From positions 1 to 39,462 of the forward strand of contig JAIPCC010000014.1 in NCBI GenBank assembly GCA_021738405.1: DNA of 39,462 bases. The letters run 5' to 3'. The position numbers were made by a program, and so were the translations under genes. Shown in pieces: positions 2,128-18,281 of the stretch. Each line of letters starts with the position of its first letter. The stretch's first letter is position 1. Under the pieces are notes generated by a model. That model saw only the letters and a list, made by a program, of their open reading frames with translations, made no database searches and had not been told where the DNA came from. This DNA comes from Crocinitomicaceae bacterium (GTDB lineage Bacteria > Bacteroidota > Bacteroidia > Flavobacteriales_D > Crocinitomicaceae).

Positions 2128-3150
2128 TTACTTCATGCGCGACTGCGCATTGAATTTCTTGAAGTTCAGTAAAGATTTGAAATAGATTTCTACGCCGCCT
2201 ATGCCACCAGTTGCTTGGTTGAGCTTAGAGGTGTTGGCGTCAAAGGATAAGCCAAAACGGAATTGCGATACTTTCATGCCGAAAGTAGCAACCACTGCAT
2301 CGCCATGACGGTAGTAAACGCCGTAATTGACGCAGTTTGATTTGTTGATACCAGTGATTTTAGAACCTTCTTTGATGGTATTCTCAAAAGTAACACCTGC
2401 GGTAAGGCTGTTGGTGTTGCTGGTGCGGAAGAATACAAAATTGGGTTGGATGCGAAAGTCTGGGTTTTTGGTTGCCAAATCGGCACCACCTTGCAAGACC
2501 ATTTGCATGTACATTTTGTCGCCGCTGAAAGACCAAGCCATTTTGGGTTTGATCAGGTGATTGAGCGCATAACCTGCATAGAAGGAAGAGCGGTTGTTGA
2601 TTTGGTGCTGAAAATAGATACCTGTTCCGAGGTCCATGGTGGCGTAACTGCCGTTGATACTGTTTTCTACAGAGGTAGCAGGATTAAATACAGAACCATC
2701 CCATTGGTTTTCCCAAGTCTGACCCGAACGATCTGAAGCTTGCTGAATAAAACCTGGTGCAACCCCGATGCTGAGTTTATTTTGGCGATCTAGGGCCAAA
2801 GTATAATTCAACGGAAGCGACACGCTTAGGGTAGTTAGGTTGGCAGCACCTGTTTGGTCTGAGAGGATGCTGAAACCTACACCAAAGTTGTTGCGATTGG
2901 CCAAGCCTTCTTCTTTGATTTTGAATTCGCCGTTGATGAAGTTGCTGCGCATGCCAACGCCTGCTTCCGGAACGGTTAGCCATTGGGAGCGGTGATTGGC
3001 AAAAAAGCTCATGTCTCCGGGACCAGTAGCTACTGCTCCGGGGTTGTAGATCATTTGCGATTGCGACCAATTAGAAATAATGCGGTCGTGCTGTGCGGTG
3101 GCGCTGAAGGCACCTGCAAAAGTCAGGGCTAAGTATAGTGTGCGTTTCAT
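2128..3150 (-). CDS. PorP/SprF family T9SS outer-membrane protein
   Basis: The product is 340 residues. It has a signal peptide (MKRTLYLALTFAGAFSATAQ) followed by the PorP/SprF hallmark region: QHDRIISNWSQSQMIYNPGAV, then SFFANHRSQW near residues 50-58. The remainder alternates short hydrophobic and polar stretches, as expected of an outer-membrane beta-barrel (YFQHQINNRSSFYAGYALNHL, RFGLSFDAN). Characterised members help export or anchor particular T9SS cargo; SprF, for example, is needed for SprB. The gene upstream, only 4 bases away on the same strand, encodes a type B T9SS substrate. Cargo and partner barrel are therefore probably co-transcribed. I cannot tell whether this is the core PorP or a cargo-specific paralogue; the pairing favours a paralogue. 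Confidence 0.9.
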   Translation of the reverse strand: MKRTLYLALTFAGAFSATAQHDRIISNWSQSQMIYNPGAVATGPGDMSFFANHRSQWLTVPEAGVGMRSNFINGEFKIKEEGLANRNNFGVGFSILSDQTGAANLTTLSVSLPLNYTLALDRQNKLSIGVAPGFIQQASDRSGQTWENQWDGSVFNPATSVENSINGSYATMDLGTGIYFQHQINNRSSFYAGYALNHLIKPKMAWSFSGDKMYMQMVLQGGADLATKNPDFRIQPNFVFFRTSNTNSLTAGVTFENTIKEGSKITGINKSNCVNYGVYYRHGDAVVATFGMKVSQFRFGLSFDANTSKLNQATGGIGGVEIYFKSLLNFKKFNAQSRMK

Positions 3151-3154
3151 GTGC

Positions 3155-4099
3155 TTATCTGAATAGGGTAACGTTTCCTTTGCGCGAACCTGAGCGGCCG
3201 TCGATGGTGCGGAAGTTGAGAATATAAGTGTAAGTAGCAGGGTTCATGGCCTTGCCTTTGTAGGTGCCGTCCCAGCCTTCTTTGACGTCGGTAGTGCGGA
3301 ATACTTGCTGTCCGTAGCGATTGAAAACGCGCAGGTCGATTTCTGCCAAAGCACCACCTTCTTCGTAGCCATTGGCAAAGTTGCCATCTGCATCTACGTT
3401 GGACAACACGCGGAAGAAATCGTTTTCGCCGTCGTCGTTCGGAGAGAAGGAATTCGGAAGTTCAATTTTGACTTGGTTGGCAAAATTGACAGTAACCAAT
3501 ACGGTGTCGTAAGCAAAGCAGCCATTGAGGCCGTACTGAACAACATAATAAGTCGTGTAAAAAGGCGTGACAGTTAGCGAATCGCCAGCAATACAAGTTG
3601 TGCAACCCGGGATGCTATCTGCAGCCACGCCACTCGGATACCAAGTCAGGTTGCCGCCAAAAGGAGCACCTTCTGCATATAAGTAGGCTTCTTGGAACAT
3701 ATCGATGGTGGTGTCTGGAATCACGACATACACACCAGCAAGTGTATCAGAAATTGTGCTGCTTACAGTTGGCATCGGAAGAACCGTTACAAATTGCGTA
3801 ATGGTACTCACGGCGCCTTGCGCATTGGTGGCTGTTAACGTTATGGCAAACGGACCAGTTGTGCTGGCAGTATTGAAACAAATTGGACCTGGGTTTTGAC
3901 CTACAAAAGTAGCTGGCGTGGCATTTTGGAATGTCCAGAGGTAGGCGAGGTCGTCGCCGGTGGAGTTATTGACCACGTAAATACAGTCTCCTTGACAGAG
4001 GATGTTGTCGGGGTCAGAAACCGTAAAATTAGCAGATGGGGCCTGTGCATAGCTGAGCCACGCAAAACAGGAAATAAAAAATAAAGATAAAGCTTTCAT
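3155..4099 (-). CDS. Secreted PKD-like protein with T9SS type B (gliding-motility) C-terminal domain
   Basis: The product is 314 residues from the ATG at 4099 (MKALSLFFISCFAWLSYAQ), which begins a clean signal peptide. An in-frame ATG seven codons upstream (4120) would only add a short charged extension. Residues about 20-105 look like a PKD-type immunoglobulin fold (LAYLWTFQNATPATF, FAITLTATNAQG). The last 95 or so residues are the CHU_C/type B sorting domain: LPNSFSPNDDGENDFFRV, IDLRVFNRYGQQVFRT, WDGTYKGKAMNPATYTYIL and RKGNVTLFR. This domain targets proteins to T9SS. Four cysteines lie in the middle region (CQGDC and CTTC). It is the first gene of a two-gene operon with the PorP/SprF-like gene. 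Its ligand or surface role is unknown. Confidence 0.9.
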   Translation of the reverse strand: MKALSLFFISCFAWLSYAQAPSANFTVSDPDNILCQGDCIYVVNNSTGDDLAYLWTFQNATPATFVGQNPGPICFNTASTTGPFAITLTATNAQGAVSTITQFVTVLPMPTVSSTISDTLAGVYVVIPDTTIDMFQEAYLYAEGAPFGGNLTWYPSGVAADSIPGCTTCIAGDSLTVTPFYTTYYVVQYGLNGCFAYDTVLVTVNFANQVKIELPNSFSPNDDGENDFFRVLSNVDADGNFANGYEEGGALAEIDLRVFNRYGQQVFRTTDVKEGWDGTYKGKAMNPATYTYILNFRTIDGRSGSRKGNVTLFR

Positions 4100-4125
4100 A
4101 CGCTTGTTAAAGATGTACAATCATA

Positions 4126-7473: not shown

Positions 7474-8312
7474 ACTACTACGAACTTCAAATCACAATCG
7501 GCTCTTTTGATGAATGGCACGATATCCTTGTGGCCTATCTCGCCGAGCTCGACTACGAGAGTTTTGTAGAGGAGACACCGATACTCAAAGCCTATATTCA
7601 AGAGGCGTACTACGATGGTCAAAAATTACAGACCTTATTGAAAGAAATGAACGAGAAAGGCGCACCAATTGCTACTTTTGAGCTCGCCTTATTGCCACAG
7701 CAGAACTGGAACGCTACTTGGGAGGCACAGTTTGAGCCGGTCATCATCAATGACAACTTGCGCATTGTAGCTCCTTTTCACACTTTAGCGCCAACAGACG
7801 GCATTGAAATCAAGATTTTGCCCAAAATGAGTTTCGGAACAGGTCATCATCAGACCACCCACCTGATATGCGAAAACATGCTGGCTTTGGAGCTTCAGGG
7901 CAAAAAAGTCCTGGACATGGGTGCTGGTACAGGCGTTTTGGCCATTTTGGCGGAGCGCTTGGGTGCAGCGCAAATAGATGCGATCGAAATCGAGGAGTGG
8001 TCTGCGGAGAATATCCTTGAAAATATTGCGCTCAATGGTAGTAATCATATTACAGCGATCCACGGCGGTGCACCTGAAATTCCATCGGAAGGTTACGAGG
8101 TGATACTCGCAAACATCAACAAAAACGTATTGCTCGACCAACTTCCGGTTTACGGCAGGGTTATTGCCCAACAAGGGCTACTGATGCTCAGCGGCTTTTT
8201 TGTAACCGATGCCCCAGACCTGATTGCAGCTGCTGCCAGAGTTGGTTTTGAATGGGTGAGAACCGATGCTCGCGAAAATTGGGCTGTAGTGCTCCTAAAA
8301 AAAATACCATGA
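7470..8312 (+). CDS. prmA: Ribosomal protein L11 methyltransferase
   Basis: The product is 280 residues from the ATG at 7470, which shares ATGA with the tpiA stop. An upstream in-frame start at 7452 lies inside tpiA and is less likely. PrmA methylates ribosomal protein L11 using S-adenosylmethionine in the cytoplasm. The N-terminal part (MNYYELQI...YLAELDYESFVEE) is the substrate-recognition domain. The catalytic domain carries MSFGTGHHQTTHL, the SAM-binding motif VLDMGAGTGVLAI, the acidic ribose-binding segment DAIEIEEW, and a VILANINKNVLL motif corresponding to the NIxxxxL active-site signature. It is translationally coupled at both ends: tpiA upstream, and the 1502-aa gene downstream, also through ATGA. 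Confidence 0.95.
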   Translation: MNYYELQITIGSFDEWHDILVAYLAELDYESFVEETPILKAYIQEAYYDGQKLQTLLKEMNEKGAPIATFELALLPQQNWNATWEAQFEPVIINDNLRIVAPFHTLAPTDGIEIKILPKMSFGTGHHQTTHLICENMLALELQGKKVLDMGAGTGVLAILAERLGAAQIDAIEIEEWSAENILENIALNGSNHITAIHGGAPEIPSEGYEVILANINKNVLLDQLPVYGRVIAQQGLLMLSGFFVTDAPDLIAAAARVGFEWVRTDARENWAVVLLKKIP

Positions 8313-11300
8313 AATCTTTCCTTTATTTGTTGTTTGGCTTGCTGCTAGCGTTGCCTTCTTTCTTTGCTCAAACTTTTCCTTTAGACCGCGATAAATTTGT
8401 CAAAACCTGGCAGCAACTTGTCGTGGAAGAAAGCGCACAAGCGTACCTCAAAGACCAGTTGCCACAACTCATCAAAGGTTCTACCCTCAACGATACCCAA
8501 TTCAAAAAATTGCAAGAAAACTGCAATCTGCTTCAAGCCAAAGATGTACCCACTTTTCCTGAGTTATTTGACTTTTTACAAGCAAGTATTGCCATTGTTC
8601 AAAATAAAATCAACCCTGAGCTCGCCAACCCCTGGACAAAATATGTTTTTGACTACGCCGCTAGCCCAGATGAGCAGCTGACGCAATTCCTCGATTTTTC
8701 TGTCGATTTTTTCAAGTATGGTGCCCTCTACAAAGAGCGCGATTTTTTGTGGAAAGCACAGGGCGGAACCCTGCGTTGGGTCGAGACCAAAAAATTATAC
8801 ATCGAGGCCACCGGTGTTGCCCTAAAATGCATCAAGTACGACGACAACAAGCGTCCTGAAGATTCAATTGTGGTTTACAACACCTCCGGCACCTTCGATA
8901 TGCAAACCAAGCGCTGGGAAGGTAAAAATGGAACGCTCACCTGGGAGAAGGTCAATTTGCCAAAATCCGAAACCTTCGCCACGCTCAAAACCTATAAAGC
9001 AGATTTATTGACGGCCAAACTCAAGGCCGATTCCGTTGCGTTATCCACGCCTTATTTTGCCACGCCTATTTTGGGCAAACTTTCCGACCTCACCACTTTA
9101 GATTTAGCTGAAAAAGAGTCGGCGCCACAATTCACTTCTTATGAAAAGCGCTTAAAAATCAATGAGTTGCGTCCGCAAATGGATTACGACGGCAGTTTTA
9201 CTCTTGAAGGCGCAGATTTCATCGGAAAGGGAGCGAGTGGCAAACCCGCCATGCTCTTGTTCAAGTGCGAAGGCAAAGTCCTCTTTGAAATCAGTGCCGC
9301 TGGTTTTGAGATGTCGCCACAGCAAATTTTGGCCAGAGGAGCGCGTGCGGTGCTGCGCTATAAAAACGGCGATTCCCTCAGCATTCAAGAGTGCTTCTTT
9401 ACCTTTGATGAAAAGCAACAGCAATTGCGTTTGGCAGCGGCTCAACGCGGCACCGACTACTTTCCATTTGTAGACAGCTACTTCAAATTGTATTGCTACG
9501 CGCCGGTACTCACCTGGAAAAAAGGCACCGCCGATCCTTATTATACTTTCGATGTCGGTACGGCCCAAGAGCGCAAAATGGCCCGCTTTGAATCCATGAA
9601 TTACTTTGACAAAGCGCTCTATTCTCGTTTTGCAGGGGCAGGGGCCAACAATCCGTTCCCTGTTTTTGCGCAATTAGTCGACAAACAAGGCAAAACGCTG
9701 TTCACAGAAGGCGAGTTGGCCAACGCGCTCAAGAAAACAATTGACCAAGTCAAGCCTTTATTTGTCGACCTCAGTGCAGCTGGTTTTCTGAGCGTCGATC
9801 CGGTGCAAAAGAAATTGCTGGTCACGCCCAAACTTTTGGCCTATGCTGCAGCCACACAAGGTAGCGGAGACTACGACAACCTCTTGGTGGTTTCCGACCT
9901 CAGAAAAGTGCAAACCACAGCCTATGCCAGTATTTCGTTAGACAAACAAGAGCTCATTTTCAGGGAGGTGGAGCAGATTACGCTTTCCGAAGCCCAGCAG
10001 GTGCGCATTTTCCCCGACACGAGTGTCGTGTACATGTATCAAAACAGAGACATCGGGTTTTCGGGGTGGCTCAAGGCCGGCAAATGCGAAATCCAAACCA
10101 ACTTCTCGAAGTTCGATTACGAACAGTTTTTGGTCAATTTACTCACCACCGAAAACACTGCTTTTCGCGTCAGACCGCTCAAAAAAGAAGACGGACAAGA
10201 ATCTATTCTGCTACTCAGTGAACTCAAGGGCGTGCGCGGAACACTCCGCATAGATGATCCGGATAACAAAGCCGGGAAAGCCACAGGCAATACGCATTTT
10301 CCGGTACTCAGTACAGTTGCACCGGGCAAGATTTTTTACAATGACCCTTCCATTCTCAAAGGCGCTTATGATTCTACACGGTTTTACTATGAGCTCGCCA
10401 TCTTTGAACTCGATAGCTTAGATAATTTTGCAGAAGCAACTTTTCAGCTCGATGGGCAATTGGTGTCATCGGGTATCTTCCCCAAAATGCAAGTTCCTGT
10501 ACGCATCATGAACGATTACTCGCTGGGTTTCATCACTACGGCGCCAAGTGAAGGTTATCCTTTCTATGAAACGAGTTCGCGCTACAAAAATCAAATTTAT
10601 TTGTCTCACAATGGCTTACAAGGTGCCGGAACCATTCAATTTTTGCACACCACAGCCATATCTAAAAAACTGACCTTTTTGCCCGATTCAACCATCGGTT
10701 TGGTGGCATTTTCAGGCCCTGAGCAAAAGACCGGTGTGCGTTATCCGCTGGCCAAATCAGAAAAAGCATACATGAGTTTTGAGCCGCGTCAAGAAAAGCT
10801 CAAGATTGCCAGTTACGGCAATGAACCCTTACTCATTTTTACGGAGGATGTATTGGTCGACGGTCAACTTTTGCTCGATAAAAAAGGCATGACCGGCAAG
10901 GGAACGTTGTTCTACAAAGAAGCCCAACTGGCAGCCCGCGACTTTGAATTCACGGACGTAGACATTCGCTCGCAAAATGCATCTTTTGCGCTGCGCAACC
11001 GCTTCTCAAGCTATGGAGAAAATCCTTTGGCTATACAGTCCGACGAAATGAAAGCCCACATCAGTTTTGCCAACCGCATCGGTGAATTTTCCTCCAACGG
11101 CACCAAACGCATCATGTTCCCTGCCAATGAATACTATTGTCAGATGGATAAATTTACCTGGTTCATCGATGGCGAGTCTCTAGACTTCAAGAAAAACAAA
11201 GGCGGCGAAACAACCTTTGAGAGTGGGGCGGACCTCGCGCGCAACAACTTCTATTCCACAAATGCCAAACAAGATTCACTGCAATTCAAGTCGCTTAGCG

Positions 11301-12817
11301 CCAAATACGACCTTAAAACCCAACTGATACTCTGCGATGCTGTCGAGTATATTCAGGTTGGCGATGCGCGCATCTTCCCAGATTCTTCTCGGGTGCGCAT
11401 CCGCAAGGCCGCTGCAATGGATACGCTTAAAAATGCAAAAGTCTTGGCCAATTACATCACGAAGTTCCATCAGTTTGAACAAGCCACACTGCACATCGCA
11501 GGGCGTTTGGCGTATGATGGCAATGGTGTTTATCCGTATTACGACCGCGACAGCAGCAAAAGCCTCATTGGCATTAAATCCTTGAGTTATGTGCAAACCA
11601 AAACGGTGGCCAAAGGAGAGATTCCAGAAAACGCGCAGTTTCAGCTCAGTCCTGAGTTCGCTTATTTTGGAAAAGTTCAAATTGAGGCCAATCATCCGGG
11701 CTTGCTGCTAGAAGGTTCCACTAAGCTTTCACATCCTTGCCAATACGACAAATCCTGGATGAGCTTCAAGGACACCATTTTAGCCAAACAAATTCAGATT
11801 CCTATCCCCGAAAAACCTACAGATGCCAAAGGCAATAGCTTGGCGCTCGGTTTTGTTTGGCGCGCCACCGAACGTGCGGATAGCATGCGCATTTATCCTG
11901 CCTTCTTATCGCAGCAAATTGGCGTAGCAGACCCGGGGCTTTTCCGCGTCTCGGGTTACCTCCAATACGATCAGCAAACCAAACAATTTGAGGTCGGTAG
12001 CAAAGCGCGCCTGGAACGCACGGACTCACTGAGCAATTTGTTGGTGTTGGCAGTTGAAAGCTGTGGTTTGTCAGGTTATGGCCACATCGATTTAGGCATC
12101 GCAACAGGTGAGGTCGATATCGATTTGTATGGCAAGATCAGCTATGATTCCGAAAAAAGAAAGACCCGAATAGCAGCCAATGCAAAAATTACGATGCCGC
12201 TAGACAACGCGGTCTGGACAGAAATGGCCAACCAATTCAAGGCTGCAGAAACGGCGCCCGAATGGAATATCAAAAAACCAATGGATGCTTTACTAAACAG
12301 CCTTACAGCGTGGTCTAACCCGAAAGATGCCCAAGAAGTGTTTAAAGATTTTGACGAAGAAAAATTGAAGAAAATGCCGAATACGCTTGAGCAAAGTCTG
12401 ATCTTGAGCGGAATCGTTCTCGAGAATTTCGGAAGCAATAAACCAAGTGCTAACAAGCAAGCAAAAGGTCTCATGAGCGAAGCCCAAAGTGTAGGCCTCA
12501 TCTCGATCAACGGTACGGCAATTGTGCAGCCCGTGACGCTCACGCAAGCTTATGTGCAAAGTTTTGGCGACGATGCCAATACAGCCTTTTATTGGTCCTT
12601 AGAAGCCTTTGACGGCACGAGCTATATCTTGGGTTATTCGCAGGAGAAAAAAGACGGCTTGCTGAGTGTGTATTCCACTAATGTCAAGCTATTGGCAGCT
12701 ATTGACGGCATCAAACCCGATAAAAGAAAGACCCGAAATTTCAATTACGAGAGCACCCAAGAACAGGAAGCTTCAAAAATTTTAGCTAAATTGAGGGCTT
12801 ATTTGCTAAATAAATAA
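8309..12817 (+). CDS. Very large exported protein of unknown function, 1502 aa
   Basis: The ATG at 8309 overlaps the prmA stop (ATGA) and begins a signal peptide (MKSFLYLLFGLLLALPSFFAQ), so the earlier in-frame start at 8252 is rejected. The mature protein has no further obvious membrane segment. An alpha-helical region (about 20-150) is followed by more than 1000 residues of beta-rich sequence with modules of the type G-x-L-x-(Y/F)-x-x-x-x-x-x-F. One module looks duplicated: VRIFPDTSVV near residue 564 and ARIFPDSSRV near 1019, each followed by a similar L-x-x-A then F-x-x-F-E pattern. The style recalls long beta-stack envelope proteins, but no catalytic motif, sorting domain or OmpA/SPOR anchor was recognised. 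A helical, Lys-rich C-terminus ends SKILAKLRAYLLNK. I do not recognise the family, though the gene looks intact. plsY follows after 5 bases. Confidence 0.85.
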   Translation: MKSFLYLLFGLLLALPSFFAQTFPLDRDKFVKTWQQLVVEESAQAYLKDQLPQLIKGSTLNDTQFKKLQENCNLLQAKDVPTFPELFDFLQASIAIVQNKINPELANPWTKYVFDYAASPDEQLTQFLDFSVDFFKYGALYKERDFLWKAQGGTLRWVETKKLYIEATGVALKCIKYDDNKRPEDSIVVYNTSGTFDMQTKRWEGKNGTLTWEKVNLPKSETFATLKTYKADLLTAKLKADSVALSTPYFATPILGKLSDLTTLDLAEKESAPQFTSYEKRLKINELRPQMDYDGSFTLEGADFIGKGASGKPAMLLFKCEGKVLFEISAAGFEMSPQQILARGARAVLRYKNGDSLSIQECFFTFDEKQQQLRLAAAQRGTDYFPFVDSYFKLYCYAPVLTWKKGTADPYYTFDVGTAQERKMARFESMNYFDKALYSRFAGAGANNPFPVFAQLVDKQGKTLFTEGELANALKKTIDQVKPLFVDLSAAGFLSVDPVQKKLLVTPKLLAYAAATQGSGDYDNLLVVSDLRKVQTTAYASISLDKQELIFREVEQITLSEAQQVRIFPDTSVVYMYQNRDIGFSGWLKAGKCEIQTNFSKFDYEQFLVNLLTTENTAFRVRPLKKEDGQESILLLSELKGVRGTLRIDDPDNKAGKATGNTHFPVLSTVAPGKIFYNDPSILKGAYDSTRFYYELAIFELDSLDNFAEATFQLDGQLVSSGIFPKMQVPVRIMNDYSLGFITTAPSEGYPFYETSSRYKNQIYLSHNGLQGAGTIQFLHTTAISKKLTFLPDSTIGLVAFSGPEQKTGVRYPLAKSEKAYMSFEPRQEKLKIASYGNEPLLIFTEDVLVDGQLLLDKKGMTGKGTLFYKEAQLAARDFEFTDVDIRSQNASFALRNRFSSYGENPLAIQSDEMKAHISFANRIGEFSSNGTKRIMFPANEYYCQMDKFTWFIDGESLDFKKNKGGETTFESGADLARNNFYSTNAKQDSLQFKSLSAKYDLKTQLILCDAVEYIQVGDARIFPDSSRVRIRKAAAMDTLKNAKVLANYITKFHQFEQATLHIAGRLAYDGNGVYPYYDRDSSKSLIGIKSLSYVQTKTVAKGEIPENAQFQLSPEFAYFGKVQIEANHPGLLLEGSTKLSHPCQYDKSWMSFKDTILAKQIQIPIPEKPTDAKGNSLALGFVWRATERADSMRIYPAFLSQQIGVADPGLFRVSGYLQYDQQTKQFEVGSKARLERTDSLSNLLVLAVESCGLSGYGHIDLGIATGEVDIDLYGKISYDSEKRKTRIAANAKITMPLDNAVWTEMANQFKAAETAPEWNIKKPMDALLNSLTAWSNPKDAQEVFKDFDEEKLKKMPNTLEQSLILSGIVLENFGSNKPSANKQAKGLMSEAQSVGLISINGTAIVQPVTLTQAYVQSFGDDANTAFYWSLEAFDGTSYILGYSQEKKDGLLSVYSTNVKLLAAIDGIKPDKRKTRNFNYESTQEQEASKILAKLRAYLLNK

Positions 12818-12822
12818 AATTA

Positions 12823-13455
12823 ATGACGCTCTTATTTGTTTTATTCACCGCTTATTTGCTCGGTAGTATCCCAACTGCTGTATGGGTTGGCCGCTATTTT
12901 AAAGGTATTGACATCCGCGAACACGGCAGTAAAAACGCCGGTGCAACCAACACCTTTCGCATCCTAGGCAAACGCTTTGGCTGGATGGTACTGCTCACCG
13001 ATGTCATCAAAGGCACTACCGCTGCTTGCTTACCCTATTTTTTAGCCCAAAGTGCTTTTAGTGGTTATAAAGACGAGTTTTTGATCTTGCAATTAGTGGG
13101 TGGTTTTAGTGCTGTAGTGGGTCATGTCTTCCCCATCTTTGCACAATTTAGAGGCGGCAAAGGCGTGGCTACTTCGCTCGGGATCGTCATTGGCATCAAT
13201 CCGCCAGCAGCTGCGGTTTGCTTGTCTTTGTTTCTGCTCGTCTTTCTCTCTACGCGTTATGTTTCGCTTGGCGCAATCATTTCTGCACTCTGCTTTCCGT
13301 TGGTTTCTTATTTTTTCATCCACAACGACACCCGTATCATGATCATCTTCACGATTGTACTCGGAACACTCGTCATTTGGGCACATCGAAAGAATATTGA
13401 GCGCTTGCTCAAAGGCACCGAAAACCGCATGAACCTTTTTGCCAAAAAATCGTAA
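12823..13455 (+). CDS. plsY: Glycerol-3-phosphate acyltransferase PlsY
   Basis: PlsY transfers an acyl group from acyl-phosphate to glycerol 3-phosphate at the inner membrane, the first acylation of phospholipid synthesis. The product is 210 residues with about five membrane helices. All three conserved cytoplasmic motifs are present: YLLGSIPTAVWVGR, HGSKNAGATNTFR, and GHVFPIFAQFRGGKGVATSLG. The C-terminus is basic (RKNIERLLKG, AKKS). It lies 5 bases after the 1502-residue exported protein gene and 23 before the 1600-residue gene, suggesting one transcript for lipid and envelope functions. Confidence 0.96.
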   Translation: MTLLFVLFTAYLLGSIPTAVWVGRYFKGIDIREHGSKNAGATNTFRILGKRFGWMVLLTDVIKGTTAACLPYFLAQSAFSGYKDEFLILQLVGGFSAVVGHVFPIFAQFRGGKGVATSLGIVIGINPPAAAVCLSLFLLVFLSTRYVSLGAIISALCFPLVSYFFIHNDTRIMIIFTIVLGTLVIWAHRKNIERLLKGTENRMNLFAKKS

Positions 13456-13478: not shown

Positions 13479-16400
13479 GTGCGCACAAAAAGGCTCATTT
13501 ATTTCGTTTTCACTGTTTTGTTATTGGGGCAAAACCAAAGCGCTTTGGCACAAAGTCAGAGCAGCCTTGAGAAACGTGCCGCACAAGCCTTTGCGCAACA
13601 AAATTATAGCGCAGCCCTTGTAGATTATCGCCAATTACTGGCCAAAGACCAACAAAACCCAAACTTCAATTACCATTATGGCGTCTGCCTTTTTGAAGTA
13701 GACAATCACTTTGAAGCCGCCAAATATTTCGATGTAGCGCTAGGCCTCAAGCAAATTTCCGACCCCTTACTGTATTACTACCGCGCACAAATCTTTCAAG
13801 AACAATATTTCTTCGCGCAAGCAATTAAAGCCTACGAAAACTATCAACAGCTCAGTCAGCAAGCGAAAACACCACGAGATGTCAGCCGTCAAATTGCCGA
13901 ATGCCAGCGTGGCTTAAAAGAAGTATCGGCTTTCATCAGGCTACCGCTGCTCTCGCTACAGACAACAAAGAACCCCAAATTTTATTCAGCCTATCCATTT
14001 GCTCCGGATGATTATACCTTTTACGAGGCGCCTGAGGTGCACAGCAAGAATAACGCAAAGCACGCGCATGTGCCCGTTTATGCCTACAAGCGCGGAATGA
14101 AATACAGAATTTTAGCGTCGTATGGTCCAAAAGGCACACAGCTCGATTTATATATCCAAAAGAAAGACGCCAACAACAACTGGGGTAGCCCTCAGCTCAT
14201 CGGAGGTGGTGTCAATGACCCTTTAAGCAATGAGTCTTTTGGTTTTTATGATGCTGCCTCCCAAACACTCTATTTCAGTTCTACCGCGCAAAGCATTGGT
14301 GCACACGACTTATTCAAGGCCTCTTTTGAGCTCACGACCAACACGGCATCGGCAATTGAAAAAATGCCGTATCCCTACGCAAGCCCGAGCGATGACCTCT
14401 TTTATGTCTGCGATGCCGCGCAAAATCAGGCTTACTTTGCGACCTCCAGACAAGGCGTTGTGGGGCAGTACGAAATCTATACCTTGCAACTCGACGCGCC
14501 CGTTCGGTCCAACTTTGTATTTGCAGGCTTTTTTACAAATGAACTCCAACCCGAATCTAAAGCGCTGAGTCTTCAATTTACAGACCTGCTCACCAGCGAA
14601 GTCTATGGGCCTTTTGTTTCTGATGCCACGGGCGCATATCAAGTAGCATTGCCTCAAAAAGGTGATTTTTTACTCGAAATACAAGTAGACGGCGCTTCAA
14701 AAGTTTATCAAACGCGTTTCAGCATCCCCAACCTACAGCCGCAAACCATATTGCAACAACAAGTGCTGTATTTCAGCGACGAACTAGGCAAAGAACAGTG
14801 GCAGGTCCGCAACCAACTCCTCGAGCAAGATCCGGCCACCCAATTGGCAGGCTTTTCCAAACTCCAAATGAATGTCGCAAAAGGTGGGCTTCTGCAAGCC
14901 AAGACCTCAGCGCTCGAAAGCTCCAAGCCATTGCAAGTCTCTTTGGCCGCAACATTTGGTTTTGCTGCCCAAGATACCGCAGCGTTTGTCACTCAAATGA
15001 TAGACACCTTGCTGGCCGCCGAGGTAAGTCTGGAAAACCAAGTGCGCCTCATGGAGCTTTTACGCCAAGATTTCGAACAACAGCTCGATGTCCGAGAACA
15101 ACTCCTCGCCAAGTTAAGTCAGGCCATCACACAGCCTAGTTCTGCAAGTGAACGCGAAGAACTGCTCCAAGAATTAGCCGCGGTAGAAAGCGCATTGGCA
15201 TTCAATCAACGCTGGATCCAAATCAATCAGGCCGCCAATATTCCAGATTTGGTGCTCCTAGATACCCTGCGCGCCTTGAACGAACGCCATCAGGCTTTGC
15301 TACTTTCCGGTGATTCCCTTGGCTTACTCGCTGGCTGGACCCAACAACAAGCCGCCCTCCAACAATATTTGGAAATCGCCGCTTTCGATGGAGCCAGCGC
15401 ACTTGAAGCCGCAGCACTCGAACAGAAGCGTAGCTTGCAAAAGCTCATCCAAGAAGAAGCCGCCATTAAAGCCCAGCAGCAGCAAGTCGCACAGCAAATC
15501 AAGCAACTGCAAACCGCCTTACCGCTCCAATCCAAAAAAGAACAGGCCCAAACGCAATTACAAATCGCTGCACGCGAGCGCGAAAGCAAAGCCCTAGACG
15601 CCACCGCCACCCAATTGCGCTCAGAACGCGAAGCCGCCGCCGCCGAACTTCAAGTTTTCGACCAATCCTCCCGCAAAGCGGCCTATCTCAAAGCGGCCGA
15701 AAATCAAAGTCTGCCACAAATCAATCTCCAAAGCTCCTACGACGAATTATTGGCCCAATATGCCCAACAACAAGACCTTTCCCAAAACCTCAAGTCTCAA
15801 CTTGCCACCACGGAAAATGAGAATGTTTCAACCGTAACCAATCCAATTTCTTCCGAAAATGGGAATGTTTCTACCACAACTCCTGAAAATGGGAATCTAG
15901 GATCGAACCAAGAATTGGGGAATTCGGAGATCATCAATTCAAATCGAACCTCCACGGAGAACGGAAATACAACCTCTACCAATCCAATATCCTCGGAGAA
16001 TGGGAATCTTTCTACCACAACCAATCCAATTTCTTCCGAAAATGGGAATGTTTCAACCATAACGAATCCAATTTCTTCCGAAAATGGGAATGTTTCTACC
16101 ACAACTCCTGAAAATGGGAATCTAGGATCGAACCAAGAATTGGGGAATTCAGAGATCATCAATTCAAATCGAACCTCCACGGAGAACGGAAATACAACCT
16201 CTACCAATCCAATATCCTCGGAGAATGGGAATCTTTCTACCACAACCAATCCAATTTCTTCCGAAAATGGGAGTGTTTCAACCGCAACCAATCCAAATTC
16301 TTCCGAAAACGGGAACGTTTCAACCACCACTCCTGAAAATGGAAATTTAGGATCGAATCAAGAATTAGGGAATTCGGAGATCATCAATTCAAATCGTTCC

Positions 16401-18281
16401 TCTACAGAGATCGGAAATACTACCGCTACCAATCCAATATCCTCGGAGAATGGGAATCTTTCTACCACAACCAATCCAAATTCCTCCGAAAATGGAAACG
16501 TTTCAACCACGACTCCAGAGAACGGAAATATCAACTCCATTAACCCAAATTCTTCCGAAAATGGGAATATTTCTACCACCACTTCAGATAATGGTAATCT
16601 AGGGTTGAATCAAGAATTGGGGAATTCGGAGATCATCAATTCAAATCGTTCATCAACGGAAAATAGGAATACAACCTCCACCAATCCGGAACTCATACAA
16701 GAACAAATTTCAAGATTTGAACAAGAACTATTGGCTATCTCGATGATGGGTGGCGATGAAATCCCGAAGACGCTTCCGAAGATAGAACGACTGGGGCTTT
16801 CGAATGAGGCACTTGAAAGTTTGGAGCAGCAATTGGTACTTCCAGTAATAGATGCTACTGAGCAAGGTGTTGATGTGGAGGCATATGTGAATTACGCGGA
16901 GCAGCGTCGGGTTTTTGAGCAAACGAAAATCGAGTTGCTGCGCAATCAGCAGGAGCTGAGGGCGATTGAAGAAGATTTTCGAGCTGAAAAGAAGGAACAG
17001 CTTGCGGCTTTGATTTTGGCTCAGGTGCAATTACAAGAACGTTTGAACGCGCAACAGCGCGCTTTAGTGGCCTTGCCGAATCAGGCCGTATACGAGGCGC
17101 TCTTGCAGCAAAATTACAGGCCTCAGGTGAGTGCGCAGGGTGAATTGGCGCAGGGCGTGGGTTCTGCTGCGGTGGCGGGAAGTGTTTTTGCGGTGCAAGA
17201 AAAACAGGCGCAAACGCAAGCAACACCTTTGCCAGTTGGTTTGCCTTGTCCGCAAGGGTTGGTATTTAGAGTTCAGGTAGGTGCATTTAGAAAACCGGTT
17301 CCGGCCGAGCGTTTTCGGGAATTTACGCCGGTTGATGGTCAGGTGTTAGCCAATGGGCTCACGGTGTATATGGCGGGGTATTTTAGCTCGTCTGCCGAGG
17401 CACTGCAACAACAGAAATTGATCCGCACGCTGGGTTATCCGGATGCGTTTGTAGTGGCTTATCAAAATTGCAGCCGCTTGAGTTTGGCGCAGGGTAGGGC
17501 TTTGGAAACTTCGACGACCTCACGACCACAAGAATTGGCAAGTAGTAGTCTTTTTGCCTCTCCCGGACAAGGATTGTATTATACGGTTCAAGTAGGGGTT
17601 TACAATAGGCCTTTGACTTCTGAGGCGCAAATTGGCCTGAGCGAACTCATTGAGGCCAAAACAGCTAAAGGACAATATAGGTATGCGAGCGGTAAGTTTG
17701 GGAACTTAAAAGACGCCAAGGCCAGACAGCAATTGGCCGTTGCAAAAGGCATTACAGACGCTTTTATTGTGGCTTATTATCAGGGCAAGCGCATCGATTT
17801 AGCACAAGCTAGGTTGTTGGCGCAATCGGGCATTGCCTTTGAGCAAAACTTTGAGCAAAATCAGGTGCCAGCGCTATCTGCTGAACTGCAGCAAAAATTA
17901 TTGGCCCTTGAGCTTCCTCAAACGCAGCCGCTGAAAATCCCGGATCCGGTGCTGCGCTACGAAACCAAATGTACAGATTGCCAAGCGGAGCTCAGCAGAT
18001 ACAACAGAGTAGGGGTATTTGTCTATGACCCGGAAAAAGATCTCATTATGTCGGCGATGCAAAAAGCGTCTGAATGGGATGTCGTGCAGCTGATGTACAT
18101 GAAAGAATTGCGCAAGAAAACACCGACTTTAAAAGGGGAGACACAAACGCTTGAATTGGACCTCAATGGTCTTGATGGCGCCTTTGTGGATTGGTTGCTG
18201 CGACAAGCAAATAGTTACGAGCTGAGCAAAGACCAGCAAGGCAATCTGCAGCTCAGGTTTGTACTGCCGTCAGTAGACTAA
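13479..18281 (+). CDS. Giant TPR / beta-propeller / coiled-coil / SPOR envelope protein, PorE-like layout
   Basis: The product is 1600 residues from a GTG start that gives a clean signal peptide (to about ALAQ, residue 25). Domains in order: TPR-like helices (30-150: YSAALVDYRQLL, EAAKYFDVAL, QAIKAYENYQQL); PD40-type beta-propeller blades (about 170-345: DPLSNESFGFYDAASQTLYF); a carboxypeptidase-regulatory-like beta-sandwich (about 349-420: VSDATGAYQVALPQKGDFLLEI); Gln/Ala-rich coiled coils (about 500-775); an Asn/Ser/Thr-rich repeat tract (about 777-1070); a second coiled coil (1073-1190); two SPOR-like domains (about 1260-1350, VFRVQVGAF; about 1366-1455, YYTVQVGVY); and a final 115-residue domain with a CTDC pair. 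SPOR domains bind peptidoglycan. TPR, propeller and regulatory sandwich in this order is the layout of T9SS component PorE, which ends in OmpA_C instead. A periplasmic or outer-membrane structural role is inferred. Confidence 0.85.
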   Translation: MRTKRLIYFVFTVLLLGQNQSALAQSQSSLEKRAAQAFAQQNYSAALVDYRQLLAKDQQNPNFNYHYGVCLFEVDNHFEAAKYFDVALGLKQISDPLLYYYRAQIFQEQYFFAQAIKAYENYQQLSQQAKTPRDVSRQIAECQRGLKEVSAFIRLPLLSLQTTKNPKFYSAYPFAPDDYTFYEAPEVHSKNNAKHAHVPVYAYKRGMKYRILASYGPKGTQLDLYIQKKDANNNWGSPQLIGGGVNDPLSNESFGFYDAASQTLYFSSTAQSIGAHDLFKASFELTTNTASAIEKMPYPYASPSDDLFYVCDAAQNQAYFATSRQGVVGQYEIYTLQLDAPVRSNFVFAGFFTNELQPESKALSLQFTDLLTSEVYGPFVSDATGAYQVALPQKGDFLLEIQVDGASKVYQTRFSIPNLQPQTILQQQVLYFSDELGKEQWQVRNQLLEQDPATQLAGFSKLQMNVAKGGLLQAKTSALESSKPLQVSLAATFGFAAQDTAAFVTQMIDTLLAAEVSLENQVRLMELLRQDFEQQLDVREQLLAKLSQAITQPSSASEREELLQELAAVESALAFNQRWIQINQAANIPDLVLLDTLRALNERHQALLLSGDSLGLLAGWTQQQAALQQYLEIAAFDGASALEAAALEQKRSLQKLIQEEAAIKAQQQQVAQQIKQLQTALPLQSKKEQAQTQLQIAARERESKALDATATQLRSEREAAAAELQVFDQSSRKAAYLKAAENQSLPQINLQSSYDELLAQYAQQQDLSQNLKSQLATTENENVSTVTNPISSENGNVSTTTPENGNLGSNQELGNSEIINSNRTSTENGNTTSTNPISSENGNLSTTTNPISSENGNVSTITNPISSENGNVSTTTPENGNLGSNQELGNSEIINSNRTSTENGNTTSTNPISSENGNLSTTTNPISSENGSVSTATNPNSSENGNVSTTTPENGNLGSNQELGNSEIINSNRSSTEIGNTTATNPISSENGNLSTTTNPNSSENGNVSTTTPENGNINSINPNSSENGNISTTTSDNGNLGLNQELGNSEIINSNRSSTENRNTTSTNPELIQEQISRFEQELLAISMMGGDEIPKTLPKIERLGLSNEALESLEQQLVLPVIDATEQGVDVEAYVNYAEQRRVFEQTKIELLRNQQELRAIEEDFRAEKKEQLAALILAQVQLQERLNAQQRALVALPNQAVYEALLQQNYRPQVSAQGELAQGVGSAAVAGSVFAVQEKQAQTQATPLPVGLPCPQGLVFRVQVGAFRKPVPAERFREFTPVDGQVLANGLTVYMAGYFSSSAEALQQQKLIRTLGYPDAFVVAYQNCSRLSLAQGRALETSTTSRPQELASSSLFASPGQGLYYTVQVGVYNRPLTSEAQIGLSELIEAKTAKGQYRYASGKFGNLKDAKARQQLAVAKGITDAFIVAYYQGKRIDLAQARLLAQSGIAFEQNFEQNQVPALSAELQQKLLALELPQTQPLKIPDPVLRYETKCTDCQAELSRYNRVGVFVYDPEKDLIMSAMQKASEWDVVQLMYMKELRKKTPTLKGETQTLELDLNGLDGAFVDWLLRQANSYELSKDQQGNLQLRFVLPSVD
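15837..16688 (+). repeat. In-frame 225-bp tandem repeat inside the 1600-aa gene
   Basis: Units start near 15837, 16062, 16287 and 16539. The spacing is 225, 225 and 252 bases, so one unit carries an extra 27-base piece and the last is partial. The segment around GAATTGGGGAATTCGGAGAT recurs at 15912, 16137, 16362 and 16614. Units 1 and 2 are nearly identical at DNA level; units 3 and 4 have drifted. Each 75-residue unit is built from smaller blocks such as NPISSENGNVSTTT and TPENGNLGSNQELGNSE. All lengths are multiples of three, so copy change keeps the frame. Confidence 0.95.

Follow-up and report, generated by a model that had tools for sequence, protein, structure and literature searches.

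A PorE-related secreted protein with tandem SPOR domains in place of OmpA_C, apparently specific to one order of Bacteroidota

The window analyzed here, a stretch of 39,462 nucleotides from a Crocinitomicaceae bacterium (2.16-Mb assembly in 91 contigs, 99.7% complete), contains an intact open reading frame of 1600 residues with a GTG start, whose exact position is uncertain. The initial annotation had read its product as a relative of the T9SS component PorE, in which the peptidoglycan-binding OmpA_C domain has given way to long coiled coils and two SPOR domains. This raises the question of whether the protein is a substitute for PorE, a part of the T9SS, or a tether of another kind that reaches the cell wall through a different module. 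Whole-protein scans recovered TPR matches, a borderline SPOR match (20.0 bits) and a partial PorE match; the domain assignments were firmed up using 34–36 relatives and are collected, with the neighboring genes, in Table 1.

Table 1. Features of the 1600-residue protein and its upstream neighbors (window positions)
Feature	Position	Strand	Basis or remark
1521-aa secreted protein, conserved upstream neighbor	8252..12817	+	start more likely near 8309
PlsY glycerol-3-phosphate acyltransferase	12823..13455	+	between the 1521-aa and 1600-aa genes in many genomes
1600-aa PorE-like/SPOR protein	13479..18281	+	ORF; homologues order-wide
Signal peptide ending ...SALA-Q, without lipobox cysteine	13479..13553	+	read by eye
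TPR repeats, about residues 29-150	13563..13928	+	Pfam TPR families in relatives
Short PD40-type beta-propeller region, about residues 151-340	13929..14498	+	PD40 and PorE profile matches
Carboxypeptidase-regulatory-like domain, transthyretin-like fold, about residues 345-449	14511..14825	+	model; Pfam itself weak
Helix-prone linker 1, A/Q/L/E-rich	14826..15812	+	
In-frame tandem repeat, 225 bp x 3.1, 42-bp sub-units, N/S/T-rich	15813..16509	+	
Helix-prone linker 2	16728..17228	+	
SPOR domain 1 (SPOR1), residues 1257-1335	17247..17483	+	Pfam above cut-off
SPOR domain 2 (SPOR2), residues 1361-1450	17559..17828	+	homology to SPOR1; structure matches
C-terminal domain, ~120 aa	17919..18278	+	present in members of the window's genus

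The expectation that TPR repeats, a beta-propeller and a regulatory domain follow one another in the order seen in PorE was borne out, with the propeller shortened. Pfam TPR families matched most of 34 relatives, PD40 was matched in 15 of the 34, and the NF052230 (PorE) profile aligned with residues 237–338 of the 1600-residue protein (4.7e-8). The score with this profile, 31.8 bits, lies below its curated cut-off of 600, a strict threshold under which the canonical PorE of the same genome also falls (353 bits). Structure models built from shallow alignments were of low confidence (mean pLDDT 45–53), and Foldseek alone returned mostly noise for the front model; the regulatory domain was modeled with a pLDDT of about 76–85 and matched the transthyretin-like fold (Z 9.3). 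When a profile of the front half was compared with a profile of 31 PorE proteins, the match had a probability of 99.9% (E 1.4e-37), and, apart from a missing portion of the PorE propeller, the alignment was colinear from the TPR to within the regulatory domain. As judged from these profiles, PorE and the front half of the 1600-residue protein are homologous and follow the same linear order. No lipobox cysteine, which would point to N-terminal acylation, could be discerned by eye in the 1600-residue protein; since the canonical PorE of the window's genome likewise lacks one, the lipobox is a weak criterion for PorE.

The OmpA_C domain of PorE has been crystallized with a peptidoglycan fragment (PMC7192894). 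A Pfam scan detected no such domain in the 1600-residue protein, all 13 OmpA matches of the genome lying elsewhere, and its place is taken, as had been proposed, by two tandem SPOR domains. The first of these is recognized by Pfam itself (PF05036, 28–36 bits against a cut-off of 21), and the second, which scored 20.5 bits when searched alone and thus falls just below that cut-off, is recognized by homology: it aligns with SPOR1 at 32% identity (E 5e-12) and is its paralogue. When the RNP-like fold of SPOR was looked for, a low-confidence model of SPOR2 matched the SPOR domains of CwlC (Z 7.0), RlpA (6.1), FtsN (4.9) and DamX (4.5) in the PDB, with unrelated folds also reaching about 5, and Foldseek alone found no match to the C-terminal model at E <= 0.001, the SPOR of FtsN ranking fifth. 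Pfam SPOR was matched in 35 of 36 relatives, and every member scanned had at least two SPORs (range 2–4), with three or four in several members outside the window's genus.

SPOR domains recognize glycan stripped of its peptide stems; glutamine Q270 of RlpA contacts the glycan, and its counterpart in FtsN, Q251, is important (PMC6895207). With the FtsN positions located by eye through the G-x-F/V motif common to the domains, we observed the equivalent glutamine (1266 and 1371 in the 1600-residue protein) without exception in SPOR1 and SPOR2 of the 36 members. At the position of FtsN R285 a basic residue is found in SPOR2 of 36/36 members; in SPOR1 the 16 members from other families all have it, and the 20 belonging to the window's genus all lack it. 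The conserved contact residues support the predicted binding of glycan by the SPOR pair. It could alternatively be supposed that these SPOR-like domains have lost glycan binding and serve protein contacts, in keeping with the sub-threshold Pfam score of SPOR2 and the missing basic residue of SPOR1 in the window's genus; however, the invariance of the glutamine in both domains and the retention of the basic residue in every SPOR2 make this highly improbable. The present family shares a SPOR-type domain, and within it the conserved glutamine that contacts glycan, with FtsN, DamX, RlpA and CwlC. Its two to four SPORs and its PorE-like front set it apart from these; furthermore, the 1600-residue protein showed no enzyme domain and, the signal peptide aside, no transmembrane anchor.

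The long coiled coils anticipated ahead of the SPORs were upheld only in part. The linker is rich in A, Q, L and E and carries a weak heptad signal in two stretches, but heptad tests gave no support to long coiled coils, and the helix-prone segments are interrupted by the N/S/T-rich tandem repeat. The strong heptad signal inside the repeat was dismissed as an artefact of repetition, and a minus-strand ORF at 15797–16330 was rejected as a gene, being a by-product of the same repeat. The repeat units are near-identical, and the homologous genes of relatives often break across contigs at this point, so that copy numbers in the assemblies are uncertain. Among the members the linker varies from 564 to 1903 residues. 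Such very long and variable linkers, together with the extra SPOR copies of some families, which suggest avidity, would be compatible with a scaffold attached to the wall through a SPOR array that has no preference for the septum, its only task being to keep the outer membrane, or some complex, at a distance from the wall along the cell. Yet SPORs of known function track denuded, mostly septal glycan (PMC6895207), and we regard a scaffold of this kind as rather unlikely.

Whether the protein stands in for PorE was addressed by searching the genome for a standard PorE, as the initial annotation had advised. A canonical PorE of 732 residues is separately encoded on contig C69, accompanied in the genome by further PorE-like proteins with OmpA_C, and PorE is present in 57 of 60 relatives. 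Because a separate PorE coexists with it, the 1600-residue protein is PorE-related but not PorE, and the notion of a substitute was not sustained. Both have a wall-binding module towards the C-terminus behind the same series of front domains; in contrast to PorE (~700 residues), however, members of the present family span about 1400–3500 residues, with a shorter propeller and a linker of 560–1900 residues. The family is thus a genuine but so far unnamed version of the PorE-like tether, in which the wall anchor is of another type. It represents a swap from OmpA_C to SPOR in a PorE-related envelope scaffold and, if SPOR reads stripped glycan here, this would redirect the tether to sites of wall remodeling.

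The proposed membership in the T9SS did not find support either. The T9SS marker SprA was detected in 148 of 150 genomes of the order, and the two without it also lack the PorE-like/SPOR protein. SprA is thus present in 106/106 genomes with the protein and in 42/44 without it, the latter including 26 genomes from four genera of family f9 (families bear anonymous codes, such as f1 and f9), all of which lack the protein and keep SprA. Since SprA is so widely kept in its absence, the protein is unlikely to be needed for the T9SS, and this distribution argues against a core part. No PorP/SprF gene adjoins the 1600-residue gene, and the link to the T9SS or gliding is weak. An accessory role, in which the protein would serve as an alternative PorE-like anchor and fasten barrels of the PorP/SprF type, or the surface proteins belonging to them, to the wall, draws on the PorE homology of the front half, on the presence of SprA wherever the protein occurs, and on the proposal that PorE of P. 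gingivalis bridges PorP and peptidoglycan (PMC9143113). The window also holds a PorP/SprF gene beside one for a CHU_C type IX-sorted PKD protein (2128–4120, minus strand), about 10 kb upstream on the opposite strand, a hint that is suggestive only. Nevertheless, the coexisting canonical PorE, the genomes that keep SprA without the protein and the missing adjacent porP, unlike the PorP/PorE-like pair on contig C54, render an accessory role improbable.

At E <= 1e-60 the front half was recovered in 106 of the 150 order genomes. Each has a single copy, which in one case is divided between two contigs, and some of the absences go back to broken contigs, the break often falling at the tandem repeat. 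In the remainder of the phylum, which was sampled, the front matched only over the propeller and regulatory domain, with 167 bits at most against 526–530 for members, and matches to the SPOR array were far weaker. By these searches, the family is specific to one order of Bacteroidota. The named contigs with homologues are mostly MAGs labeled Crocinitomicaceae, Cryomorphaceae or Flavobacteriales. Searches of the open literature on SPOR in connection with the T9SS, with gliding Bacteroidetes, or with Flavobacterium or Bacteroidota, a scope that takes in few subscription papers, turned up nothing on the family.

This conserved, unnamed family is usually paired with an uncharacterized large protein. 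The 1521-residue protein encoded upstream is found in 141/150 order genomes and has no match in NCBIfam, the PDB or, for the window's protein, Pfam. The PorE-like/SPOR gene lies adjacent to and downstream of it on the same strand in 76 of the 104 genomes with both, the exceptions being mostly from family f9, where both genes are kept but apart; some further families of the class have the 1521-residue gene next to PrmA or PlsY and not to a PorE-like/SPOR gene. Given the separated genes of f9 and the wider spread of the 1521-residue gene, the adjacency may partly be inherited gene order.

We give about an even chance to the protein being a secreted, non-lipidated periplasmic tether that fastens a partner to glycan stripped by amidases, which is often septal. 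In this view the TPR, short propeller and regulatory domain of the PorE-related front would dock onto an envelope partner, for which the adjacent 1521-residue protein would be the first candidate, the long linker would provide reach, and the SPOR array would grip the denuded glycan enriched at the division septum. Targeting to the septum is plausible from SPOR biology and the conserved glycan-contact residues. The window's genome encodes an Amidase_3 protein (L016:622-1809) whose SPOR-like tail resembles SPOR1; this protein is a possible source of denuded glycan. The absence of the basic residue from SPOR1 of the window's genus, the low confidence of the structure models and the possible inheritance of the gene order count against the tether.

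Other combinations of these anchors were noted in the order. Several ORFs of ~700 residues (L157, L158, L159 and L162) combine about three SPORs with a TSP3 repeat and a front resembling a beta-barrel; proteins of this type occur in several other families of the order and resemble OmpA-type porins with OmpA_C replaced by SPORs, an apparent second swap. At L163:859-3772, contig C54 of the window's genome encodes a PorE-like protein of 648 residues, which shares a PD40 propeller, a regulatory domain and a SPOR-like tail with the 1600-residue protein but, unlike the latter, also has OmpA_C, shows no TPR by Pfam and adjoins a PorP/SprF gene. As scattered examples, the barrel-TSP3-SPOR proteins and the C54 protein suggest that SPOR acts in the order as a mobile module for anchoring to the wall. 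We consider it decidedly unlikely that SPOR arrays repeatedly replaced OmpA_C in the outer-membrane scaffolds of the order and, at the same time, that the 1600- and 1521-residue proteins constitute a septal outer-membrane-to-wall tether during constriction.

The C-terminal domain behind the SPORs had been overlooked in the initial annotation. An impression by eye that it is STN-like was dropped, as Pfam gave nothing, and in several other families its place is taken by a third or fourth SPOR.
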